A stretch of 39,778 bases of DNA from Chloroflexota bacterium (GCA_003142755.1 PLNK01000089.1:242-40019); one strand, 5' to 3'; positions 2,408 through 20,482 are shown, numbered from the stretch's first letter. Program-made: numbers and translations. Notes: generated from the letters alone by a model not told the origin.

Positions 2408-3664
2408 ATGATGGCTCCGATCCGAGTTCTAGTCGTCGACGACTCGGCGTTCATGCGCCACGCCATGGGCCGCTTCCTGAGCGAGATGCCCGGCTTGGAG
2501 GTCGTGGGCGCCGCCGCCAACGGCGAGGAAGGGCTGACGCGGACCCGGGAGTTGCGGCCCGATGTCATCACCCTCGACGTCGAGATGCCCGTTCTCGACG
2601 GCCTTGGCATGCTCAAACGCCTGATGCTCGAGACGCCGACCCGCGTCGTGATGCTGTCGAGCCGGACCACCCAGAACGCTCAGGTGACCCTCGACGCCCT
2701 CGAGTTCGGCGCGATCGACTTCGTGCCCAAGCCTTCCGGTTCGCTGTCGATCGACATCGATCGCGTGAGAGACGAGCTCGCCGGCAAGATCGAGGCCGCA
2801 GCCGGCATGTCCGAAGCCGCCTTCTTGCGCCACTGCCAGGTCGCGGCCATGAACCTGACCCTGGCCAACAACGCTGCAGCCAGGGCGGCTGGAGCGCCCG
2901 CCTCCGGGGTCCCCGCTACCGCTACGGCCGCGGCCGTAGCGACGGACGCGTCGCCTTGCCTCCGAGTCCTGCCCGGCCCCCCGCCCTCCCAGCGGCCGCC
3001 CCGGTCGAGCGTTCGCATAGCCGCAGGCAAGCTCGTCGTCGTGGCTTCGTCCACGGGCGGCCCCAGCGCCCTCCGCACCTTCGTGAAGGGATTGCCCCCC
3101 CGGCTCGGCGCGGCCGTCGCGATCGTCCAGCACATGCCCCCGGGGTTCACGGCGTCGCTGGCCGCGCGCCTCAATGCCGCGGGCGAGTTGCGTTGCTTCG
3201 AAGCCACCTCCGAGGACATCCTCGTCGAGGACGAGATCCTCGTGGCCCCGGGCGATCGCCATCTGATCTGCTCGGCTAGCGGTCACATCCAACTCGTCCA
3301 CCTGCCGCCAGTCAACGGCGTGCGGCCGGCCGCAGACGTCACGCTTGAGGCCGTCGCCCCTATCTGGCGGGAGCGCCTGCTGTGCGTCGTCCTGACGGGC
3401 ATGGGCGTGGACGCGCGCGAGGGTGCCCGGGCCGTGAAGCAGCATGGCGGCACCGTCATCTCGCAGGATGCCGCAACGGCGACGATCTACGGCATGCCCG
3501 CCGCCGTCGCCGAAGCGGGCCTCTCCGACCAGATCCTGCCCCTGGACCAGATCGCCAAGGCCGTGGCCGGATGGTGCCGCGCGGACGAGCTGGACGGCTG
3601 TGAACCGGCTGTCCCCACCGAGGAATCCGCGCCACCGGCCGATCGATCGGACATCGCATCCTGA
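2408..3664 (+). CDS. cheB: CheB receptor methylesterase
   Basis: A 418-residue protein with two domains: a receiver (about 5-125; D11-D12, phospho-acceptor D57, KP near 108-109) and a C-terminal methylesterase (about 208-395). The catalytic triad reads as S215 in ASSTGG, H242 in QHMPPGFT and D335 in GMGVDAREG. An Ala/Pro-rich linker (about 155-205) is longer than usual. CheB removes methyl groups from receptors when phosphorylated by CheA, opposing CheR (9924-10763). Two adjacent ATGs (2408, 2411) could serve as the start, and neither has a strong ribosome site. Confidence 0.95.
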   Translation: MMAPIRVLVVDDSAFMRHAMGRFLSEMPGLEVVGAAANGEEGLTRTRELRPDVITLDVEMPVLDGLGMLKRLMLETPTRVVMLSSRTTQNAQVTLDALEFGAIDFVPKPSGSLSIDIDRVRDELAGKIEAAAGMSEAAFLRHCQVAAMNLTLANNAAARAAGAPASGVPATATAAAVATDASPCLRVLPGPPPSQRPPRSSVRIAAGKLVVVASSTGGPSALRTFVKGLPPRLGAAVAIVQHMPPGFTASLAARLNAAGELRCFEATSEDILVEDEILVAPGDRHLICSASGHIQLVHLPPVNGVRPAADVTLEAVAPIWRERLLCVVLTGMGVDAREGARAVKQHGGTVISQDAATATIYGMPAAVAEAGLSDQILPLDQIAKAVAGWCRADELDGCEPAVPTEESAPPADRSDIAS

Positions 3665-3691
3665 GGCCTTCGGGTCAGGAAACGCTCTTAC

Positions 3692-3718
3692 TCACCTAGT
3701 GCTTCAGAGCACCGATAC
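3692..3718 (+). promoter_or_regulatory. Candidate sigma-28 promoter of cheW-cheX-cheA
   Basis: TCAC at 3692-3695 and ACCGATAC at 3711-3718, spacer 15. It lies in the 113-bp gap after cheB. The -35 deviates by one base from the TCAA seen elsewhere, while the -10 is a full match to the local consensus. Confidence 0.5.
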
Positions 3719-3777
3719 CTAAGACAAGAGCCCGCAGCCGGACCGCGTCCGGTCCGCAATGCAAGGAGAGACGTACC

Positions 3778-4266
3778 GTGGCCGATAAGCCAATGTCCAG
3801 CGGTAACGGTCGGTCCGGAGAGCTGCAGATCGTCGTCTGTGAGCTTGCGGACGAGCACTATGGCCTGGACATCGCCAAGGTCTTCGAGATCATCCGCCAT
3901 CAACCGATCACGCCCGTGCCGCGCGCACCCGCCTTCGTAAAGGGCGTGATCAACCTGCGCGGCCGAATCATCCCGGTCGTCGACCTGCGCGATCGCTTCG
4001 GCATGATCGATGTCGAGCCAACGAAGGAGACGCGCATCGTCGTCGCCGAAAGCTCGTCCACCCGTGTCGGGCTCATCGTCGACAGCGTGTCGGAAGTCCT
4101 GCTCCTGCCCATCGATGCGGTGGAAACGACACCAGGGGTCGCCGCCGGGGCCGATGCCGAGTACTTGAGGGGCATCGCGAAGCTTGGCAACCGGCTCGTC
4201 CTCCTCCTCGAGCTGGACGGCCTGTTCGCTCCTGCGGACCAGACCGCTCTTGCCGGAGCCGCATAA
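3778..4266 (+). CDS. cheW: CheW chemotaxis coupling protein
   Basis: A 162-residue CheW-domain protein that links receptors to CheA. Visible signatures are ELADEHYGLDIAKVFEI, the APAFVKGVINLRGRIIPVVDL strand-turn region, and VDSVSEVLLLP near residue 105. The start is GTG 3778, supported by AAGGAG at 3763-3768. It is followed three bases later by cheX and then cheA, so the set is probably one transcript from its own candidate sigma-28 promoter. Confidence 0.93.
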   Translation: MADKPMSSGNGRSGELQIVVCELADEHYGLDIAKVFEIIRHQPITPVPRAPAFVKGVINLRGRIIPVVDLRDRFGMIDVEPTKETRIVVAESSSTRVGLIVDSVSEVLLLPIDAVETTPGVAAGADAEYLRGIAKLGNRLVLLLELDGLFAPADQTALAGAA

Positions 4267-7832: not shown

Positions 7833-8672
7833 TTGAAGCGACTCGAGAGCGCTCAGACGCCGGCGGAGGCCCGGGCCCTTCGGCTGCTTCGGGCTCTCGG
7901 CTCGCCGGTGCGCCTGCGGATCGTCGAGATCGTCGCCGTGCGCAAGGACTGCACGGGGCCGCAGCTCGCCGAGGAGCTCGGGCTTGCCCAATCAAGCCTG
8001 TTCGAGCACCTCACGGCGCTGCGGGAAGCGGGTCTGATCGAGGTCAGCGGTGAGGGGCCGAACCGCTATTACGGGCTCGATCCGTCGGTGCTCGACTCGC
8101 TGGCTGCGTATCTCGGCGGGGTCGGCGGCCGAACGCGCACCTGGGTCCTGCCGGCCGGCACGTCACCGGGCGACGGGGGAATCGAAATCAGAGACGCCCG
8201 CCTCGATGACGCCCCGGCCATAGCGCGCATCTACAACCAGGGCATCGAGGATCGCACCGCAACCCTCGAAACGGAACTACGCTCGCCAGAGGAGCGAGCG
8301 GAGTGGCTGGCCGCGCACGACGGGCGCCATCCGGTGCTCATGGCCGTGGACTCAGCTGGAGTCGCAGTAGGCTGGGCCTCGCTCAACCGCTTCAATGCGC
8401 GCGCCGCCTACGACCATGTGACCGACATGTCGGTCTTCGTGGCCCGCGAGTCACGCGGGCGCGGCGTGGGCGATGCGCTGCTGACCGCCCTCGAGGCTCG
8501 CGCCCGAGCCAACGGCTACCACAAGATGGTTCTGGCGGCCTTTCCGACGAACGCACCGGGGATTCGCCTGTACCAGCGCCACGGCTTGCTCGTAGTCGGG
8601 ACCTACCACGAGCAGGGGCTGCTGGACGGCCGCTGGGTGGACGTGGTGGTCATGGAGAAGATCCTGCGGTAG
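7833..8672 (+). CDS. ArsR-type HTH fused to GNAT acetyltransferase
   Basis: A 279-residue fusion. Residues about 12-95 form an ArsR-type winged helix (LLRALGSPVRLRIVEI, then QLAEELGLAQSSLFEHLTAL and wing residues near RYYGLD). Residues about 117-277 form a GNAT domain of the phosphinothricin acetyltransferase type (IRDARLDDAPAIARIYN; acetyl-CoA loop ESRGRGVGDALL; C-terminal YQRHGL). The ArsR part has one Cys (C40) and no CxC pair, so a classical arsenite site is not visible. Related acetyltransferases (Pat, ArsN1) detoxify phosphinothricin or arsinothricin; whether this one does is inference. The start is TTG 7833, preceded by a GAGGAG ribosome site. Confidence 0.8.
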   Translation: MKRLESAQTPAEARALRLLRALGSPVRLRIVEIVAVRKDCTGPQLAEELGLAQSSLFEHLTALREAGLIEVSGEGPNRYYGLDPSVLDSLAAYLGGVGGRTRTWVLPAGTSPGDGGIEIRDARLDDAPAIARIYNQGIEDRTATLETELRSPEERAEWLAAHDGRHPVLMAVDSAGVAVGWASLNRFNARAAYDHVTDMSVFVARESRGRGVGDALLTALEARARANGYHKMVLAAFPTNAPGIRLYQRHGLLVVGTYHEQGLLDGRWVDVVVMEKILR

Positions 8673-8709
8673 TCCCCCACCCCACCGCCCATACCAGGCC
8701 CGGACCGGA

Positions 8710-9738
8710 TCAGCCGGCCACCCTCATGACGCCAGCCTGGTCGCCGTCGTCGAGGCCATCGGCGAGGGCGTTGAAGCCGCCGAGCAGCCTGATGAACTCC
8801 TTCAGCAGCTCGTCGCTGAACTGGCCGCGCATGGTAACCCGCATGACATGGAGCGCCTCGAAGGCGCTTAGGGCCGTCCGATACGAACGTCGCGACGTCA
8901 GCGCGTCGAAAGCGTCGACGATGCCGACGAGCTGCGAATCGAGAGCTATCCCCGAGCCGGCCCGACCGGCCGGATAGCCGGATCCGTCGCACCGTTCGTG
9001 GTGCTCGGCAATGATATGAGCGTACGAGGGTCGATAGCCGAGGGCCCGGACGATCATGTCGTGGCCGGACTTGACATGGCCCCGCATGACCTGCCACTCA
9101 CTCGAGTCCAGGGCCGAGGGCTTGTCCAGCACCACACGCGGAACGCGATTCTTGCCGATGTCGTGGAGCAGACCGCCCCGGGCCACATCGAGGATTGCCT
9201 CCGGTGGCCCCAACTGCATGAATCGGGCCAGGACGATGCCGTATACGGCCGTGTTGATGGCATGGGTGTGAGTAGCCAGGTGCTTCTGCATCGTGGCCAC
9301 CATGGCCCACACCAACTCATCGTCCTCGACGAGGTGGAGGGTGATGGCGTCGATTGCCTGATGAGTCAGGAGCAGGCCATCGTGATCGAGCGGGTTCTCA
9401 CGCGTGAAGATTGGCGTAAGAACCTTGGCCGCGATCGAGTAGGCGGTCTTGCTGCGCTCGATGGGGGTCATGTGCTGGTTGGCCAGAACCCTGGGCAGGG
9501 ACGCCGCCAGGGCGCCTCGCAGCAGATCGGAATCGATCTCGCGGACCAAAAACGACATGCCGCGCTGGGCCCGAGCGATTACCTTGCGCAGTTCGCCGCC
9601 CTTCATCGCATACAGGACCGGCCGGGGACCTCGCCAGATGTACAGGTCGCACGGCAGAGTCGAGATTTCGGTCAGTACCCGAGCCGGTACTGGCTCATAT
9701 CCCGGAGGGGCCGGAGTGATGAACGGCTGGGCCAACAT
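8710..9738 (-). CDS. HD-GYP domain protein, probable c-di-GMP phosphodiesterase
   Basis: A 342-residue protein. The N-terminal ~145 residues are an uncharacterised regulatory region; the C-terminal HD-GYP domain has HD at H192-D193 (GGLLHDIGK) and HHERCDGSGYP at 246-256, all metal-binding and signature residues intact. It should hydrolyse cyclic di-GMP, which normally favours motility. I chose ATG 9738; the frame is open to 9873, but that part would overlap the divergent cheR promoter. A candidate sigma-28 promoter (9776-9802) puts it with the late flagellar genes, a sensible coupling of low c-di-GMP to swimming. Confidence 0.88.
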   Translation of the reverse strand: MLAQPFITPAPPGYEPVPARVLTEISTLPCDLYIWRGPRPVLYAMKGGELRKVIARAQRGMSFLVREIDSDLLRGALAASLPRVLANQHMTPIERSKTAYSIAAKVLTPIFTRENPLDHDGLLLTHQAIDAITLHLVEDDELVWAMVATMQKHLATHTHAINTAVYGIVLARFMQLGPPEAILDVARGGLLHDIGKNRVPRVVLDKPSALDSSEWQVMRGHVKSGHDMIVRALGYRPSYAHIIAEHHERCDGSGYPAGRAGSGIALDSQLVGIVDAFDALTSRRSYRTALSAFEALHVMRVTMRGQFSDELLKEFIRLLGGFNALADGLDDGDQAGVMRVAG

Positions 9739-9775
9739 AGACGCTCTCAAGCCACAAGCTATGAAGTCGCTTGAG

Positions 9776-9802
9776 GTGTCGGTCCGCGGGAAGGCCCCTT
9801 GA
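9776..9802 (-). promoter_or_regulatory. Candidate sigma-28 promoter of the HD-GYP gene
   Basis: Read on the minus strand: TCAA (9802-9799), 15 bases, ACCGACAC (9783-9776). The -10 is the CCGAC variant also seen before flagellin. It would give a leader of about 30 bases to ATG 9738. Confidence 0.55.
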
Positions 9803-9888
9803 GCGTATGGAAACCAACGAGGGATCCGCCGGAGGCGGGCGAGGCGCCAGACGGACGCAGGGATGGGCGGCAAGCCGGCGCCAGTCGG

Positions 9889-9915
9889 TCAATTCCAGCT
9901 GGCGCCCTCCGATAC
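9889..9915 (+). promoter_or_regulatory. Candidate sigma-28 promoter of cheR
   Basis: TCAA at 9889-9892, 15 bases, TCCGATAC at 9908-9915. The ATG at 9924 begins nine bases after the -10, where transcription itself would be expected to start, so the cheR message may be leaderless. Confidence 0.6.
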
Positions 9916-9923
9916 CTACCTCG

Positions 9924-10763
9924 ATGGAGACGCCACCTCGACCCGAGCAGCCTGTGACTCTGCCCACGTTCGCTCCTGTGCTGGAGCTCGACCCCGTCGC
10001 TTACGACCGCATGGCGAGCGACGTGCGCAGCCTGCTCGGCATCGACCTGGCCCAGTACAAGCCGGCCCAGGTCTGGCGCCGGGTAAACGGTTTTGCCACC
10101 GCCAGGGGCCTGCCCAACGCCGACGCGCTGGTGGCGAGAGCCCGCCAGGATCCCAGCCTGCGTCAGGCGTTCGTGGACATGCTGACCATCAACGTGAGCG
10201 AGTTCTTCCGCAATCCGGAGGCCTGGGACGTCCTCGTGGCGCAGTACCTCAAGCTGATGCTGCTCGGCCAGCTGTCCGTCCGAATTTGGAGCGCCGGCTG
10301 CTCCCTCGGCTTCGAGCCGTTCACGATCGCCATGCTCTCCCGGGAGATCGCGCCGCACACCCCGGTCTACATCCTGGCCACCGACCTCGACGAAACGGTC
10401 CTGGCCCGAGCTCGAAAGGGCGTCTACGCCGAAGCGCAGATGGCCGGCGTCTCGCCCGCCCGTCGAGCCCGCTTCTTCCGCAGGGTCGACAACTCCTGGG
10501 AGGCCAAGCCTGAGCTTCAGGCCTTGATCACCTGGCGACGCCACGACCTGCTCCGGGACCCGTACGAGAAGCCCTTCGACATCATCTGCTGCCGCAACGT
10601 GGTCATCTACTTCACGGAGCCGGCCAAGGTGGAGCTTTACAACCGATTTCGCGAATCCCTCCGGCCCGGCGGGGTGCTCTTCCTGGGCGCAACCGAGTCG
10701 ATCCCGAACGTCCGAGCGGTCGGCCTGGTACCTTCTGGCCTGACCTTCTACAACCGCCCCTGA
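9924..10763 (+). CDS. cheR: CheR chemoreceptor methyltransferase
   Basis: A 279-residue protein that methylates receptor glutamates using S-adenosylmethionine, opposing CheB. N-terminal helical domain (about 27-90), then the SAM-binding domain with IWSAGCSLGFEPFTIAML; the usual GEEP is GFEP here. Further signatures are ILATDLDETVLARARKGVY and CRNVVIYF. The frame is open back to 9771, but ATG 9924 is preferred because a sigma-28-like promoter ends just upstream and residues before it look random. There is no Shine-Dalgarno at this ATG, consistent with a leaderless mRNA. Separated from the other che genes by unrelated genes. Confidence 0.93.
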   Translation: METPPRPEQPVTLPTFAPVLELDPVAYDRMASDVRSLLGIDLAQYKPAQVWRRVNGFATARGLPNADALVARARQDPSLRQAFVDMLTINVSEFFRNPEAWDVLVAQYLKLMLLGQLSVRIWSAGCSLGFEPFTIAMLSREIAPHTPVYILATDLDETVLARARKGVYAEAQMAGVSPARRARFFRRVDNSWEAKPELQALITWRRHDLLRDPYEKPFDIICCRNVVIYFTEPAKVELYNRFRESLRPGGVLFLGATESIPNVRAVGLVPSGLTFYNRP

Positions 10764-15308: not shown

Positions 15309-16475
15309 CTAGCGGAGCAGGGTGAGGACGTTCTGCGGAGCAGAGTTGGCCTGGGCGAGGATCGCCGTGCCGGCCTGCTGCAGGATCTGGTCCTTGGTGA
15401 AGTTGACCATCTCCGACGCGACATCGAGGTCCTTGATGCGGGACTCCGACGCGTTCAGGTTCTCCGACGCCACGCTGACGCTGGCGACGGTGTGCTGGAG
15501 GCGGTTCTCGACCGCGCCGAGGTTGCCGCGGACTGTGCTGACGTAGCCGATGCCGGTGTCAGCCGAGGTGATCAGCGCCTGAGCCGCGGCGACGATACCG
15601 GTGCCATTGGCTGTGGCTGTAGCGAACGCCCCGATGTCTGCCGCCAGGGTGCCGTAGCCCGCTGTCGTGCTGGTGTTGCTTGTGCGGGCATCGGCGAAGC
15701 CGACCAGCAAAGAGTCGACGGCATTTGCGCCGATCTGGAAGTTGGCCTGCGTGGTCGCGGTCGTGTTGATCTGCTTCGTGGTCAGGCCGGCGGCGATGTT
15801 CGCCGCGGTATCGGTGCCGGAGAGGGAGATCGTGACGCCCATTGTGTCGAAGTTGAGCGTTTGGGCGTTCGCGCCCACGGCCAGCTGCTGCATGTGGCCG
15901 CTGGTGTCGGCCAGCGTGACAACGGGACCGGCACCGCTGGTCAGGGTATACGTGGTGCCGCCCTTGGCCCCGGAGACGTCGATCTTGCTGACGACATCGG
16001 CGCCCACGTTGGCGCCAACCTGAAGACCGCCGGCCGCCTGGCCGACCGAGAGCGCGCCGGTCAGGAGGAACTGGCCGTTGAACGTTGTCGCGCCGGCGAT
16101 CCGGTTGATCTCATCCTTGAGGGCCGAGATCTCGGTGGTGACCGATGCAGCGTCGGACGAACTTACGGTGCTGTTGGCCGCTTCCACTGCCAGCTCGCGA
16201 ATGCGCTGGAGCATGGCGTGGACTTCGGTCAGGGCGCCTTCAGCCGTCTGGACCATCGAAATGCCGTCCTGGGCGTTTCGCTGGGCCTGGTTGAGACCAG
16301 TGACCTGCGCCTGCAGCTTCTGGCTGATGGCGAGGCCGGCCGCGTCGTCGGCGGCACGGTTGATGCGGAGACCGCTCGACAGCTTCTCGACGCTACTGGC
16401 GAACGCATTCGCAGTGACGTTGAGGTTGCGCTGTGCGTTCAGGGCATTGATGTTGGTGTTGATTACCATACCCAT
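15309..16475 (-). CDS. fliC: Flagellin (filament protein)
   Basis: A 388-residue flagellin. The N-terminal D0/D1 (MGMVINTNINALNAQRNL; KLSSGLRINRAADDAAGLAI) and C-terminal D1/D0 (VENRLQHTVASVSVASENL; ending NVLTLLR) are fully conserved. The variable middle (about 150-300) is rich in Thr, Ser, Ala and Gly and gives many possible O-glycosylation sites, notable since three glycosyltransferases lie directly upstream. The start has a perfect AGGAGG (16485-16490 on the plus strand reads CCTCCT). Control looks layered: a sigma-28-like promoter, and a leader hairpin that fits CsrA binding. It is the only flagellin in the window. Confidence 0.97.
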   Translation of the reverse strand: MGMVINTNINALNAQRNLNVTANAFASSVEKLSSGLRINRAADDAAGLAISQKLQAQVTGLNQAQRNAQDGISMVQTAEGALTEVHAMLQRIRELAVEAANSTVSSSDAASVTTEISALKDEINRIAGATTFNGQFLLTGALSVGQAAGGLQVGANVGADVVSKIDVSGAKGGTTYTLTSGAGPVVTLADTSGHMQQLAVGANAQTLNFDTMGVTISLSGTDTAANIAAGLTTKQINTTATTQANFQIGANAVDSLLVGFADARTSNTSTTAGYGTLAADIGAFATATANGTGIVAAAQALITSADTGIGYVSTVRGNLGAVENRLQHTVASVSVASENLNASESRIKDLDVASEMVNFTKDQILQQAGTAILAQANSAPQNVLTLLR

Positions 16476-16595: not shown

Positions 16596-17798
16596 CTACC
16601 TCGCGCTCGCGGCGGTGCGCGCCCGCCCCACTCCGGCATGCTCCGATGCCCATCGATAGGCATCGGCCCACTCGAAAGCCCGGGCCGCTACCGTGTATTC
16701 GGTCAGGACTCGTTCACGGGCCCGAGCGGTTATCTGCGACCGAAGGTCCCGCGACGTGGCAAATGAGCGCAGGTGACGCTCCCAGTCGGCCCGAGAACGC
16801 GCCACAAGGCCGTCCACCCCATCGCGAACGACGTCGTAGGGACCCGGCCCGTCCAGACCGGAGACGATCGTCGGCGCCCCTGCCAGCGCGTACTCGAGCC
16901 AGTGAAGCTCGCTGCGAGCGCGGTTGTATGGCGTGTCCCGGAGCGGCGCCAGGCCGATGTCGGGCCGGGCGGCGACAAGAGCGGCTGCGAACGCCGGCAG
17001 GCCGCTAACCCAGGGTCGGACTTCATCGACAGCGCCCGCCAGCTGCAACGCGTCGCCGCCCAGCCAGACCCGCCGCAGGGTTGTGATCTCTCGAGCTACG
17101 GCATCTACGGCGGGGCGGGCAACGTCGTAGTCGCGCGACCGGACCGGTACGCCGTGATAGACGACGCGCGGATTGCCGGGCGCGTCGGCCGGGCCGTCGG
17201 GCCGGCCGGCCTCGTACCAGCCCGGATCCAGGGCGTTGCGTATGACCCTGACCGGAGCGCGGGTGTGAGGAGCCAGGCGTTCGGCCAGCACCGGCGTTGT
17301 GGTCGTCACGAGATCCGCCAGACCGAGGATCCGCTCGATCAAATCACGTTCGAGCACGTCTTCGGCCCCGGCTGGCAGGTCGGCGGAGAAGAAGTCGTCG
17401 TCCGTGTCGTAGACGATGGCACGCGTGCCCAGGATGCTCGGCTCCGCTTCGAGCAGCCCGACAAGCGGCCGGATGCCGAAGTAAGGCGCCAGCACGATCG
17501 GGTGTCCCGCGCCGCTGCCATGCGATTTGGCCTCGGCCGTGTCCGGTGTTCGGAACCGGCAGCCCAGGCAGGCGTGCCAGGTCCGATAGTGCCGTCGCAG
17601 GACCACCGCGTCGGACCAGCCGACGACGGCCTCCAGAGCCTCGAAGGGGCTCTCTTCGGTGGCGGGGTCGCCCGGAGTCCAGCTCACCAGCTCGACTGCA
17701 TGTCTGGCCAGCTCGGGAACGAGGGCTTCGAACCGGAGGGCGTCGGATGCGCCGGCGGCGCCCGGACCGATGACCAGGACGCGCAGCGGGTCGGTCAC
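16596..17798 (-). CDS. Glycosyltransferase 3, flagellin-linked, with zinc-finger-like insert
   Basis: A 400-residue GT-B-type glycosyltransferase, related to the two genes upstream. The first Rossmann-like domain starts VTDPLRVLVIGPGAAG; a C-x2-C-x12-H-x5-H cluster sits at C77, C80, H93 and H99; YDTDDD at 130-135; the C-terminal domain has the ELHWLEYALAGAPTI segment, where family enzymes bind the sugar nucleotide, then GPGPYDVVRDGVDGL. The start is GTG 17798, overlapping the previous stop by four bases. Upstream frame extension to 17990 only reads the other gene's antiphase. Beside flagellin, so flagellin glycosylation is the likely role; donor sugar unknown. Confidence 0.75.
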   Translation of the reverse strand: MTDPLRVLVIGPGAAGASDALRFEALVPELARHAVELVSWTPGDPATEESPFEALEAVVGWSDAVVLRRHYRTWHACLGCRFRTPDTAEAKSHGSGAGHPIVLAPYFGIRPLVGLLEAEPSILGTRAIVYDTDDDFFSADLPAGAEDVLERDLIERILGLADLVTTTTPVLAERLAPHTRAPVRVIRNALDPGWYEAGRPDGPADAPGNPRVVYHGVPVRSRDYDVARPAVDAVAREITTLRRVWLGGDALQLAGAVDEVRPWVSGLPAFAAALVAARPDIGLAPLRDTPYNRARSELHWLEYALAGAPTIVSGLDGPGPYDVVRDGVDGLVARSRADWERHLRSFATSRDLRSQITARARERVLTEYTVAARAFEWADAYRWASEHAGVGRARTAASAR

Positions 17799-18055
17799 AG
17801 CGGGACCGTCGCTCTGCTTGCAGGAAGCGCGCCCCGGCCTCCGTGCTCGGCGGCCCAGTGGTATGCGTCGGCCCACTCCTCGGCCCGTTTGTCGGCCTGG
17901 TATTCGGCCAGGACGCGCTCGCGGGCTCTTCCGGCCAGCTCGTGACGCAGGGTCTGCGAGCCCGCCAGCCGGCGGAGCCCGTCGCGCCACTCAGCCTTGT
18001 TGCGGGCCAGGAGCCCGTCCACGCCATCGCGGATGACGTCGTAAGGACCGGGCCC
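17731..18055. repeat. 325-bp direct repeat, copy A
   Basis: By eye this is identical to 19165-19489, offset 1434 bp. It covers the last 261 bp of glycosyltransferase 2 and the first 68 bp of glycosyltransferase 3. The identity stops sharply at both ends (bases 17730 and 18056 differ from their counterparts). Confidence 0.9.
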
Positions 18056-19045
18056 GCTGAAAGCGGTGGCGATGGTTGGGGCGCCGGCCATGGCGTACTC
18101 GAGCCAGTGCAGCTCGCTCTTGGCCCGGTTGAACGGCTCGTCGAGCAGCGGCGCCAGACCGATGTCCGGCCGGACCGACACGAGCGCCCGGGCAAAAGCG
18201 GCCAGCCCGTCGACCCATGGCCGGACCTCGTCCATGCAGCCGACGACCCGAGACTCGTGAGCGGCACCGAGCCAGACGCGCCACAGCCCAGCAACGGCCG
18301 AGGCCACTGCCTCCACCGCCGGCCGAGCCACTTCGTAATCGCGCAGCCGGACCGGCACGCCGTGATAGACGACCCGCGGGTCACCTGGGAGATCGGGCTC
18401 CGGCCCTCCGGCATACCAGGCCGGATCCACGGCATTGCGGACGACGCGGACCTGGCCGCGGGTGTGGGGCCGGAGCCGCTCGGCGAGGACGGCAGTCGCG
18501 GCGGTCACCAAATCGGCGATGGCGAGGATGCTCAGGATCAGGTCGCGTTCCCGCCTTGCGGCAAGACCGAGGCCCGTCCAGTCCGGGTAGTCGAGGATGT
18601 CGTCGTCGGCGTCGTAGACGACCGCCCGTTCCCCCAGCAACTCCGGGTGAGATGCCAGCAGGTCCACGATAGGTCGCAGAAGCATGTCCGGCACGATCGT
18701 ACGGTGGCCGGCCGATCGAACGTGGGCCGCCAGCTCGGGCTCCCGGTCGAAGACCGACTCGCATTCGGTGCAGACCAGGTGCGTGGAGCGCCAGCGGCGG
18801 AAGGTGACGACATCGGCCCAGGCCAGGGCCGTCAGGCCGGAGTCGCGCAGGAAGTCGCCGCTCGGCGGTGCCGTGGTGGCCCCCGTCCGGACCCCGCCGC
18901 CCAGGAGGTCATCCGCGAACGACTGCCACGACCGGACCTCGACGCCCAGCCGGGCCAGCGGCTCGACGAAGCACCCGACGCGCAGGCTGTCGGTGACCCC
19001 GGAATCGAGAGAGCCGTAGACGAGGACGTGCACCGTATCGGTCAT
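17795..19045 (-). CDS. Glycosyltransferase 2, flagellin-linked, with canonical C2H2 finger
   Basis: A 416-residue GT-B-type glycosyltransferase. It starts MTDTVHVLVYGS like glycosyltransferase 1, then diverges. An insert matches the full C2H2 zinc-finger consensus: C92, C95, F99, L105, H108, H114 (C-x2-C-x3-F-x5-L-x2-H-x5-H). Further on: YDADDD, RVVRNAVDPAWY, RPDIGLAPL, ELHWLEYAMAGAPTI. The last 86 residues are identical to those of glycosyltransferase 1. ATG 19045 is chosen because the equivalent start is conserved in the duplicate; the open frame upstream has no such support. Overlaps glycosyltransferase 3 by four bases. Likely transfers a sugar to flagellin or to a growing flagellin glycan. 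Confidence 0.75.
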   Translation of the reverse strand: MTDTVHVLVYGSLDSGVTDSLRVGCFVEPLARLGVEVRSWQSFADDLLGGGVRTGATTAPPSGDFLRDSGLTALAWADVVTFRRWRSTHLVCTECESVFDREPELAAHVRSAGHRTIVPDMLLRPIVDLLASHPELLGERAVVYDADDDILDYPDWTGLGLAARRERDLILSILAIADLVTAATAVLAERLRPHTRGQVRVVRNAVDPAWYAGGPEPDLPGDPRVVYHGVPVRLRDYEVARPAVEAVASAVAGLWRVWLGAAHESRVVGCMDEVRPWVDGLAAFARALVSVRPDIGLAPLLDEPFNRAKSELHWLEYAMAGAPTIATAFSGPGPYDVIRDGVDGLLARNKAEWRDGLRRLAGSQTLRHELAGRARERVLAEYQADKRAEEWADAYHWAAEHGGRGALPASRATVPL

Positions 19046-19164
19046 GACGCACCATGCGACGGACGCGCGGATAGTCGCGTCCTGACGATGGCGATGGTCC
19101 GACACCGAGATGGGCGCGGGAAGTCGCTTTTAGTGGAGTCCGCCCGGGGAGGTGCGATGGTACC
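19021..19164. repeat. Diverged 5' flank repeat, copy A
   Basis: This 144-bp stretch, the glycosyltransferase 2 start and its upstream flank, aligns without gaps to 20458-20601 with 20 mismatches by my count (about 86% identity). It is the other end of the 1.43-kb duplicated unit. Most differences fall in the promoter-like part. Confidence 0.8.
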
Positions 19165-19232
19165 AACCGGAGGGCGTCGGATGCGCCGGCGGCGCCCGGA
19201 CCGATGACCAGGACGCGCAGCGGGTCGGTCAC
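19165..19232 (-). pseudogene. Truncated start of glycosyltransferase 3
   Basis: These 68 bp repeat the GTG start and first 22 codons of glycosyltransferase 3 (VTDPLRVLVIGPG and on to DALR), still overlapping the glycosyltransferase 1 stop by four bases. After that the reading continues into unrelated sequence and has no domain. It is a scar of the tandem duplication, not a working gene, although its GTG could still be translated into a short nonsense peptide. Confidence 0.8.
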
Positions 19233-19489
19233 AGCGGGACCGTCGCTCTGCTTGCAGGAAGCGCGCCCCGGCCTCCGTGCTCGGCGGCCCAGTGGTATGC
19301 GTCGGCCCACTCCTCGGCCCGTTTGTCGGCCTGGTATTCGGCCAGGACGCGCTCGCGGGCTCTTCCGGCCAGCTCGTGACGCAGGGTCTGCGAGCCCGCC
19401 AGCCGGCGGAGCCCGTCGCGCCACTCAGCCTTGTTGCGGGCCAGGAGCCCGTCCACGCCATCGCGGATGACGTCGTAAGGACCGGGCCC
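19165..19489. repeat. 325-bp direct repeat, copy B
   Basis: Second copy of 17731-18055. It contains the 3' end of glycosyltransferase 1 and the truncated start of glycosyltransferase 3. The junction between the two units is at 19164/19165. Confidence 0.9.
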
Positions 19490-20482
19490 CATCGTTCGCG
19501 ACGCGATCGTAGCCGCCCCGGCGAGGGAGTACTCGAGCCAGTGCAGTTCGGAGCGGGCCCGTCCGTAGTCATCGCCGACAACGGGCGCCAAGCCGATGTC
19601 CGGCTTGATGCCGACCAGCGCCCGGGCGAAGGCGGGCACGCCCTCGATATAGGGATGGGCTTCGTCCACGGCGGCCCGGACGTTCGGGTCGTCGGCCGCA
19701 CCCAGCCACACCCGCCGAGCGCCGGGGGTCTTGACGACGACACCGTCGACGGCATCGCGGCAAACACCGTAGTCTCGCAGCCGGGCCGCGGATCCGTAGT
19801 AGACGATGCGGGGCCCGGCGGACGGGCCCGGCGCCACTGCCGGCGCCGCTTCGCCGTACCACGCCGGGTCGACGGCATTGCGCACTACCCGAACCGCGCC
19901 ATTGAATCGACCGGCCATCTTCGCCAGAACCGGCGTCGTGACGGTGACCAGGTCGGCCCGCCGCAGGAGAGCCTCTATGACCGGACGATCGGGCACGAGA
20001 CGGCGGTAGAACGGTAGCCATGGCGCGCCGGACAGCAGGTCGTCGTCCGTCTCGTACATGATCGCCCGGCCGCGCAGGCTCTCCGGATGGTGTTCGAACG
20101 TCGAGATCAGCAGCGGCAGGAGCCGGTCCGGAGTGTTCGGCCTGTGGCCCGTCGTCCGGCCGTGGTTGGCCACGAACTCGGCTGAACCGGTCGTGTCGCA
20201 GTCCTCGCAGCACGGAGCAACTGAGTACCAGCGCCGGAAGAGGATCACGTCCGCCCAGTCGATCGGAGCCCGGTTGATCTGCGCAACGCCGACCCGAATC
20301 GCGTCCTCCAGACGGTCGGCGTACTCGGCGGGAACGTTGATCGTGTAGTCGTTGAACTCCGACCAGGCCTTCATCTCGACGCCGAGACGGGCGAGACGCT
20401 CGGTGTACATGCCAAGCCGATAGAAGTCGCAGACGCCGGCCGAGCTCGAGCCGTAGACGAGAACGTGCACCGTATCGGTCAT
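19229..20482 (-). CDS. Glycosyltransferase 1, flagellin-linked, with zinc-finger-like insert
   Basis: A 417-residue GT-B-type glycosyltransferase, first of three in line toward flagellin. The N-terminal MTDTVHVLVYGSSSAG strand-loop is typical of the first Rossmann domain. The metal-site-like cluster is C92, C95, H107, H113 (C-x2-C-x11-H-x5-H; one residue shorter than its neighbours, with an extra C91). YETDDD follows, then RVVRNAVDPAWY, KPDIGLAPV, ELHWLEYSLAGAATI. The final 86 residues match glycosyltransferase 2 exactly. Probably modifies flagellin; the acceptor and donor are unproven. A weak sigma-28-like site lies about 60 bp upstream. Confidence 0.75.
   Translation of the reverse strand: MTDTVHVLVYGSSSAGVCDFYRLGMYTERLARLGVEMKAWSEFNDYTINVPAEYADRLEDAIRVGVAQINRAPIDWADVILFRRWYSVAPCCEDCDTTGSAEFVANHGRTTGHRPNTPDRLLPLLISTFEHHPESLRGRAIMYETDDDLLSGAPWLPFYRRLVPDRPVIEALLRRADLVTVTTPVLAKMAGRFNGAVRVVRNAVDPAWYGEAAPAVAPGPSAGPRIVYYGSAARLRDYGVCRDAVDGVVVKTPGARRVWLGAADDPNVRAAVDEAHPYIEGVPAFARALVGIKPDIGLAPVVGDDYGRARSELHWLEYSLAGAATIASRTMGPGPYDVIRDGVDGLLARNKAEWRDGLRRLAGSQTLRHELAGRARERVLAEYQADKRAEEWADAYHWAAEHGGRGALPASRATVPL

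Follow-up and report, generated by a model that had tools for sequence, protein, structure and literature searches.

Three glycosyltransferase genes located next to the flagellin gene of a Chloroflexota genome encode, according to profile matches and structure models, members of a previously unnamed GT-B (GT4-like) family with a single beta-beta-alpha C2H2 finger inserted in the N-terminal lobe. Relatives were found both in bacterial flagellar loci and beside the major capsid protein gene of uncultured phages, and all four putative metal ligands are kept by every finger-bearing relative, down to ~35% identity, in these two genomic settings. The reading we prefer, with a probability of about 0.6, is that the family glycosylates an adjacent self-assembling protein, and that the finger binds one zinc and contacts the acceptor or a partner, rather than nucleic acid.

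The flagellar locus and its three glycosyltransferases

The window analysed here is a stretch of 39,778 nucleotides from a Chloroflexota MAG (G000) that is 83% complete and that is closest, among named genomes, to 'Chloroflexi bacterium' fen MAGs. Its minus strand carries, in this order, flgK, flgL, fliW, csrA, GT3, GT2, GT1, fliC, a 113-aa ORF, fliD and fliS; the flagellar gene names, with the exception of fliC, were assigned from sequence inspection. No copies of the family other than GT3, GT2 and GT1 occur in this genome (Table 1). The GT1 gene has a GTG start, overlaps the stop of GT2 and lies directly upstream of fliC.

Table 1. Features of the glycosyltransferase region, with positions counted from the first letter of the window
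Feature	Position	Strand	Description	Basis
fliC	15309..16475	-	Flagellin, presumed acceptor	Flagellin_N match in the genus search; adjacency kept in sister genomes
GT1	16596..17798	-	GT-B (GT4-like) glycosyltransferase, 400 aa	ORF and translation; Pfam Glyco_trans_1_2, E=9.4e-11
GT1 finger	17502..17570	-	CLGCRFRTPDTAEAKSHGSGAGH; C77/C80/H93/H99 (GTG numbering)	Sequence; ligand conservation
Repeat, first copy	17731..18055	-	325 nt, identical to 19165-19489; 3' ends of GT2/GT3 and 5' start of GT1	Perfect direct repeat
GT2	17795..19045	-	GT-B glycosyltransferase, 416 aa; chimeric C-terminus in common with GT3	ORF; AF2 pLDDT 92; PDB fold match to GT-B enzymes
GT2 finger	18704..18772	-	CTECESVFDREPELAAHVRSAGH; C92/C95/H108/H114	AF2, Foldseek, profile against PDB
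Repeat, second copy	19165..19489	-	325 nt; leaves a GT1 5' stub between GT3 and GT2	
GT3	19229..20482	-	GT-B glycosyltransferase, 417 aa	ORF; tree grouping
GT3 finger	20144..20209	-	CEDCDTTGSAEFVANHGRTTGH; C92/C95/H107/H113, shorter by one residue	Sequence; alignment

The three proteins scored 42.3, 35.4 and 30.2 bits with PF13524 (Glyco_trans_1_2), above the cut-off of 25, and GT2 also matched phrog_7162 (E=6e-23). Searches of the PDB and of Pfam/NCBIfam with each protein returned mainly glycosyltransferase matches to the catalytic part, together with one sub-threshold zf-C2H2 match, and none of the three matched Maf or another flagellin-glycosyltransferase family in Pfam and NCBIfam. Flagellin O-glycosyltransferases (Maf enzymes; Fgi-1 of Aeromonas) are encoded in flagellar gene clusters and resemble the family in having the gene beside flagellin, the presumed acceptor.

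The C-terminal 86 residues of GT2 and GT3 are identical, a shared part that does not include the finger. The GT2 C-terminus is nearer to the GT3 clade (0.74 identity, versus 0.66 to its own clade), while the N-terminal part is nearer to its own (0.71, versus 0.39 to the GT3 clade), suggesting from the sequences that GT2 was converted by GT3; an assembly artefact may also account for the repeat. Since recombination made these C-termini identical, the three paralogues alone constitute weaker evidence for selection. GT3 groups with a FliD-linked clade of bifunctional glycosyltransferases from sister species, whose second domain is absent from GT3.

A conserved C2H2 insert in a GT-B fold

The pattern C-x2-C-x11/12-H-x5-H is found in all three proteins, and the GT2 finger is an exact fit to C-x2-C-x3-F-x5-L-x2-H-x5-H, including F99 and L105. 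In the GT2 model the cluster comes after strand 79-83 and before the strand with the Y-x-x-D-D-D motif. The ligand residues (Table 1), their place before that motif and the full classical consensus in GT2 had all been proposed in an initial sequence-only reading of the locus, and were confirmed.

That reading had also claimed, from the three proteins, that selection acts on the four ligands, which was borne out by an alignment of 92 sequences gathered from the genus, GTDB contigs and IMG/VR, most of them MAGs or metagenomic viral contigs. Residues C92, C95, H108 and H114 are retained in 92/92, 92/92, 91/92 and 92/92 sequences, respectively, and the four lowest-entropy columns among the 30 of the segment (89-118) are exactly the four ligands, an outcome with a chance of 1/C(30,4) = 3.6e-5, before allowing for relatedness. 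The ligand columns have a mean entropy of 0.02 bits and the other 26 a mean of 2.57 bits; as the protein-wide mean is 1.46, the segment evolves quickly around four fixed positions, and the alignment supports selection on the four ligand residues. The sole exception in the H108 column (L041 5572-6759) was rejected as a loss, because its loop is lengthened (x17) and its His displaced by one column, so that the C2H2 set is retained.

The spacing between the ligands differs between the two branches. Among bacterial members, 28 of 30 have C-x2-C-x12-H-x5-H, within the general C2H2 pattern C-x2-4-C-x12-H-x3-5-H, and the remaining two have x11 (GT3) and x17. Viral members have C-x2/x4/x5-C-x12-H-x1-H with all four ligands retained; H-x1-H, present in 62/62, lies outside the H-x3-5-H range and is unusual for C2H2 fingers. 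In both branches, indels fall between the ligands and never remove them. The core F and L are relaxed in most members, and GT2 scored 12.0 bits with PF00096, below the Pfam cut-off of 25.2; several other C2H2 Pfam families gave sub-threshold matches across the family. The finger occurs as a single copy with no tandem fingers, and its mean net charge is -1.9 in bacterial and -1.0 in viral members.

The insert, of ~35 residues, directly follows the ADVVxFRRxY strand and is itself followed by the Y-x-(T/L)-D-D-D strand. Two full-length relatives from viral contigs, L376 (3042-4088) and L377 (3957-4967), run from WADVVVFRxWY straight to ARxYDxDDW, and this clean absence indicates that the finger is a discrete insert. 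Homologues that lack the ligands while keeping the rest of the protein had been named beforehand as evidence against the site; L376 and L377 do lack the ligands, but the whole insert is gone there too, and no relative with the loop kept and the ligands lost was found among those collected. The finger is also missing from more distantly related phage enzymes (Zuko, Mimi, KP2025 and LR756511), which have a short loop at this place. From the DDD strand onwards, up to the C-terminus, the phage and bacterial glycosyltransferases of phrog_7162 and PF13524 share the catalytic scaffold of the family, but the phage examples compared, the four just named, are finger-less.

Structure prediction had been suggested as a check, and the AlphaFold2 model of GT2, made without templates from 50 relatives (pLDDT 92, pTM 0.89; finger 94-96), places a C2H2-type finger inside a GT-B enzyme. 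The finger is modelled with strands 90-91 and 98-99 and helix 102-112, in a beta-beta-alpha arrangement whose hairpin carries the two Cys and whose helix contains H108, with H114 just past it. A model of the finger alone (40 residues, 33 sequences) had the same topology, with a pLDDT of 74 over its whole length and of 84-86 in its core, so that the Cys in the hairpin and the His from the helix are found in both models. With the whole GT2 model, which has two Rossmann lobes, Foldseek retrieved from the PDB the GT-B enzymes GlgM, BshA, MshA and PglA, with SdgB and TarM also among the matches listed.

For the finger alone, C2H2 fingers made up nearly all of the best 50 PDB matches listed by Foldseek, with a local rmsd of 0.6-0.7 A over 22-25 residues (1mey, 5t0u, 5kkq). 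Every E-value among these 50 was above 0.1, as expected from a query of only 40 residues, and the weight therefore lies in the uniformity of the matches. A sequence profile of the finger searched against the PDB likewise matched almost only C2H2 fingers (PRDM9, ZNF568, CTCF, OTU1), with E-values that are inflated for multi-finger chains and are ~0.04-0.06 for single fingers in the best chains. From the topology and these superpositions, the four ligands would be close together in space. The model puts the finger in the N-terminal, acceptor-side lobe, apparently following the C-terminal end of one of the strands of that lobe, an end which in GT-B folds faces the cleft. Eukaryotic C2H2 fingers (PF00096 and relatives; CTCF, ZNF, PRDM9, OTU1) have the same ligand pattern and topology and provide the fold and profile matches, whereas the finger described here is single, enzyme-embedded, acidic on average and below the gathering score.

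Flagellar and capsid settings

Sister Chloroflexota genomes have the family genes either flanked by fliW and fliC or placed downstream of fliD. Flagellin and the family were found together in 11 genomes of the genus, flagellin only in two, the family only in one and neither in seven (Fisher p=0.002, uncorrected for MAG incompleteness and shared ancestry); two flagellated genomes thus lack the family. A scan of 400 genomes of the phylum gave, outside the genus, only matches that start at profile position 121 or later, beyond the finger.

Several bacterial members differ in architecture. A finger-bearing GT-B enzyme joined to a second, GT2-type glycosyltransferase domain was observed in L031 (5796-7958), L032 (7452-9656), L035 (2300-4357), L037 (2389-4530), L038 (3839-6064), L039 (3936-6260) and L061 (5348-7564); these genes are mostly downstream of fliD, and a Pfam match for the second domain was seen for L061. 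A further frame of L037 (9648-12206, 853 aa) is a fusion of two enzymes, one resembling GT2 and the other GT1, and both of them have a finger.

Finger-bearing genes of L065 and L067 (both with unrelated neighbours) and the L068 pair had no flagellin or capsid gene in the stretch read. The L068 pair (8004-10426, the same as L041) consists of tandem, divergent finger-bearing glycosyltransferases near a phage-type integrase in a flagellin-free genome, one of them with an enlarged loop in its finger. The L067 copy (2822-4024) is on a Myxococcales-binned contig of a fen MAG and is sister to a Chloroflexota copy (L065/L036), the result of either horizontal transfer or misbinning.

The family, first noted beside flagellin, is not specific to that setting: most relatives found are phage proteins encoded beside the major capsid gene. 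They are encoded by 78 IMG/VR contigs and, in 77 of these, the gene directly follows, on the same strand, that of the major capsid protein, at 72-178 nt in 76 contigs and 781 nt in one; the capsid gene was identified by phrog_1357 (E=9.5e-41) and PF25209. The 78 contigs represent one related lineage and are not 78 independent events. Glycosylation of the capsid in these uncultured phages is a direct prediction from this linkage. In the finger-less L376 and L377, the gene is between the portal gene and a protease/major-capsid fusion gene, indicating that the finger is not needed for the capsid linkage. The tree separates the bacterial clade from the viral one; the L041/L068 pair and the finger-less pair are on long branches whose joining is not to be trusted.

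Cultured and deposited phage records had no place covering at least 80% of the query. When the phage capsid protein was used to search for a host, two Chloroflexota genomes had matches, all of them remote. The locus L381 (G007:C130:25242-26150) encodes a remote homologue (30%) of this protein in a Chloroflexota genome of the same genus and is a possible prophage; the matches to family glycosyltransferases in that genome are on other contigs. Upstream of the phage capsid gene there are frames of ~1,060-1,090 aa (L136 116-3316, L187 66-3242 and L141 63-3329), and the one in L136 matched no PHROG or Pfam family.

Proposed role and alternative explanations

In the preferred reading, the proteins are GT-B sugar transferases, as their homology and predicted fold show. 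The linkage in two settings points to the adjacent self-assembling protein as the acceptor: most likely by O-glycosylation, these Chloroflexota would modify their flagellin, and a lineage of uncultured tailed phages its major capsid protein. The insert is predicted to be a zinc finger, in which zinc would fold and hold the insert on the acceptor lobe while its variable exposed surface makes contact with either the acceptor or a partner subunit. The occurrence of the finger in flagellar and capsid-adjacent phage enzymes suggests one family decorating self-assembling surface proteins. The motif and its conservation, the predicted folds of the finger and of the GT-B enzyme, and the linkage to flagellin and capsid genes are what the analysis shows; that zinc occupies the site, which proteins are the acceptors and that the finger has a contact role are our inferences. 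A broader version, held only tentatively, is that of a distinct class shared by flagellar loci and phage head modules, in which the C2H2 finger reads the acceptor, its surface being retuned for each acceptor, and which has been exchanged between phage and host.

The contact role takes its precedents from two groups of enzymes. TibC, of the BAHT group, is a bacterial protein glycosyltransferase with a two-lobed GT-B-like domain and an inserted metal finger, and its substrate is a surface autotransporter (PMC4358343). The TibC finger is of the Cys4 type, binds iron (1Fe-0S) and caps the C-lobe; it contributes to dimerisation and substrate recognition and is needed for dodecamer formation (PMC4358343). 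Both TibC and, by prediction, the family described here have a metal finger inserted in a GT-B-like enzyme, but in the family it is Cys2His2, beta-beta-alpha and in the N-lobe. TibC was absent from the PDB sequence matches and from the 50 fold matches listed for GT2. SdgA/SdgB, GtfA/GtfB and TarM are GT-B enzymes that likewise have an insert in the acceptor-binding domain, and all except TarM are protein glycosyltransferases. Through this DUF1975 insert SdgA/SdgB dimerise and TarM trimerises, and in SdgB it holds the acceptor peptide; it is a ten-stranded beta domain in enzymes of ~490-500 aa, whose description names no metal and has zero mentions of 'zinc' (PMC8561734). The SdgB/GtfA/TarM type is only remotely similar to the family, which has no DUF1975 match and an insert of only ~35 residues.

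In the literature searched, open-access PMC, we found no GT-B family described as having a C2H2 finger embedded in it. The suggestion that no such family had been described stands to that extent, while TibC already provides the example of a bacterial protein glycosyltransferase with a metal finger (PMC4358343). What appears to be new is the C2H2 nature of the finger, the place where it is inserted, and the family's occurrence in flagellar as well as capsid settings.

A serious rival, although we consider it somewhat improbable, is that the finger is a purely structural zinc site that stabilises a loop of the N-lobe, with no recognition role. The ligands alone are conserved and the exposed residues vary freely, as if the identity of the surface were irrelevant, and the enzyme is found in capsid-linked phages both with and without the finger. 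However, a dispensable, self-stabilising insert should often be lost, whereas all finger-bearing relatives keep the four ligands, and the insertion point is on the cleft-facing side of the N-lobe. L376 and L377 are natural controls for the role of the finger.

It is rather doubtful that the finger would instead be an oligomerisation module for homo- or hetero-oligomers of GT1, GT2 and GT3. Besides the precedents of the TibC iron finger (PMC4358343) and the DUF1975 insert (PMC8561734), several paralogues are co-encoded, and one pair is fused in the single frame of L037 noted above. Against this, the phage loci read carry one copy, and a variable surface would suit a co-evolving partner better than a homotypic contact.

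The finger had also been suggested as a docking module for flagellin, FliS or DNA/RNA. Docking specific to flagellin or FliS was rejected as a general role, as most relatives are capsid-linked. C2H2 fingers are textbook eukaryotic DNA-binding modules, and the sequence profile of this finger resembles them. Such binding might serve, for example, regulation or the modification of nucleic acid, and some phage glycosyltransferases modify DNA (PMC12619734). Nevertheless, binding of DNA or RNA is very improbable for a lone finger with a negative mean net charge and no tandem copies, in genes linked to those of structural proteins. A C2H2 finger in the acceptor lobe of a prokaryotic and phage enzyme provides a clean system for testing what a lone finger contributes to a protein glycosyltransferase.

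Finally, coincidence or paralogue recombination, rather than selection, is refuted as the source of the Cys/His cluster: the 325-nt identical segment shows that GT2 and GT3 recombined here, but the finger is outside it, and the ligands are kept, with variants in their spacing, in distant bacterial and viral relatives amid highly variable columns.
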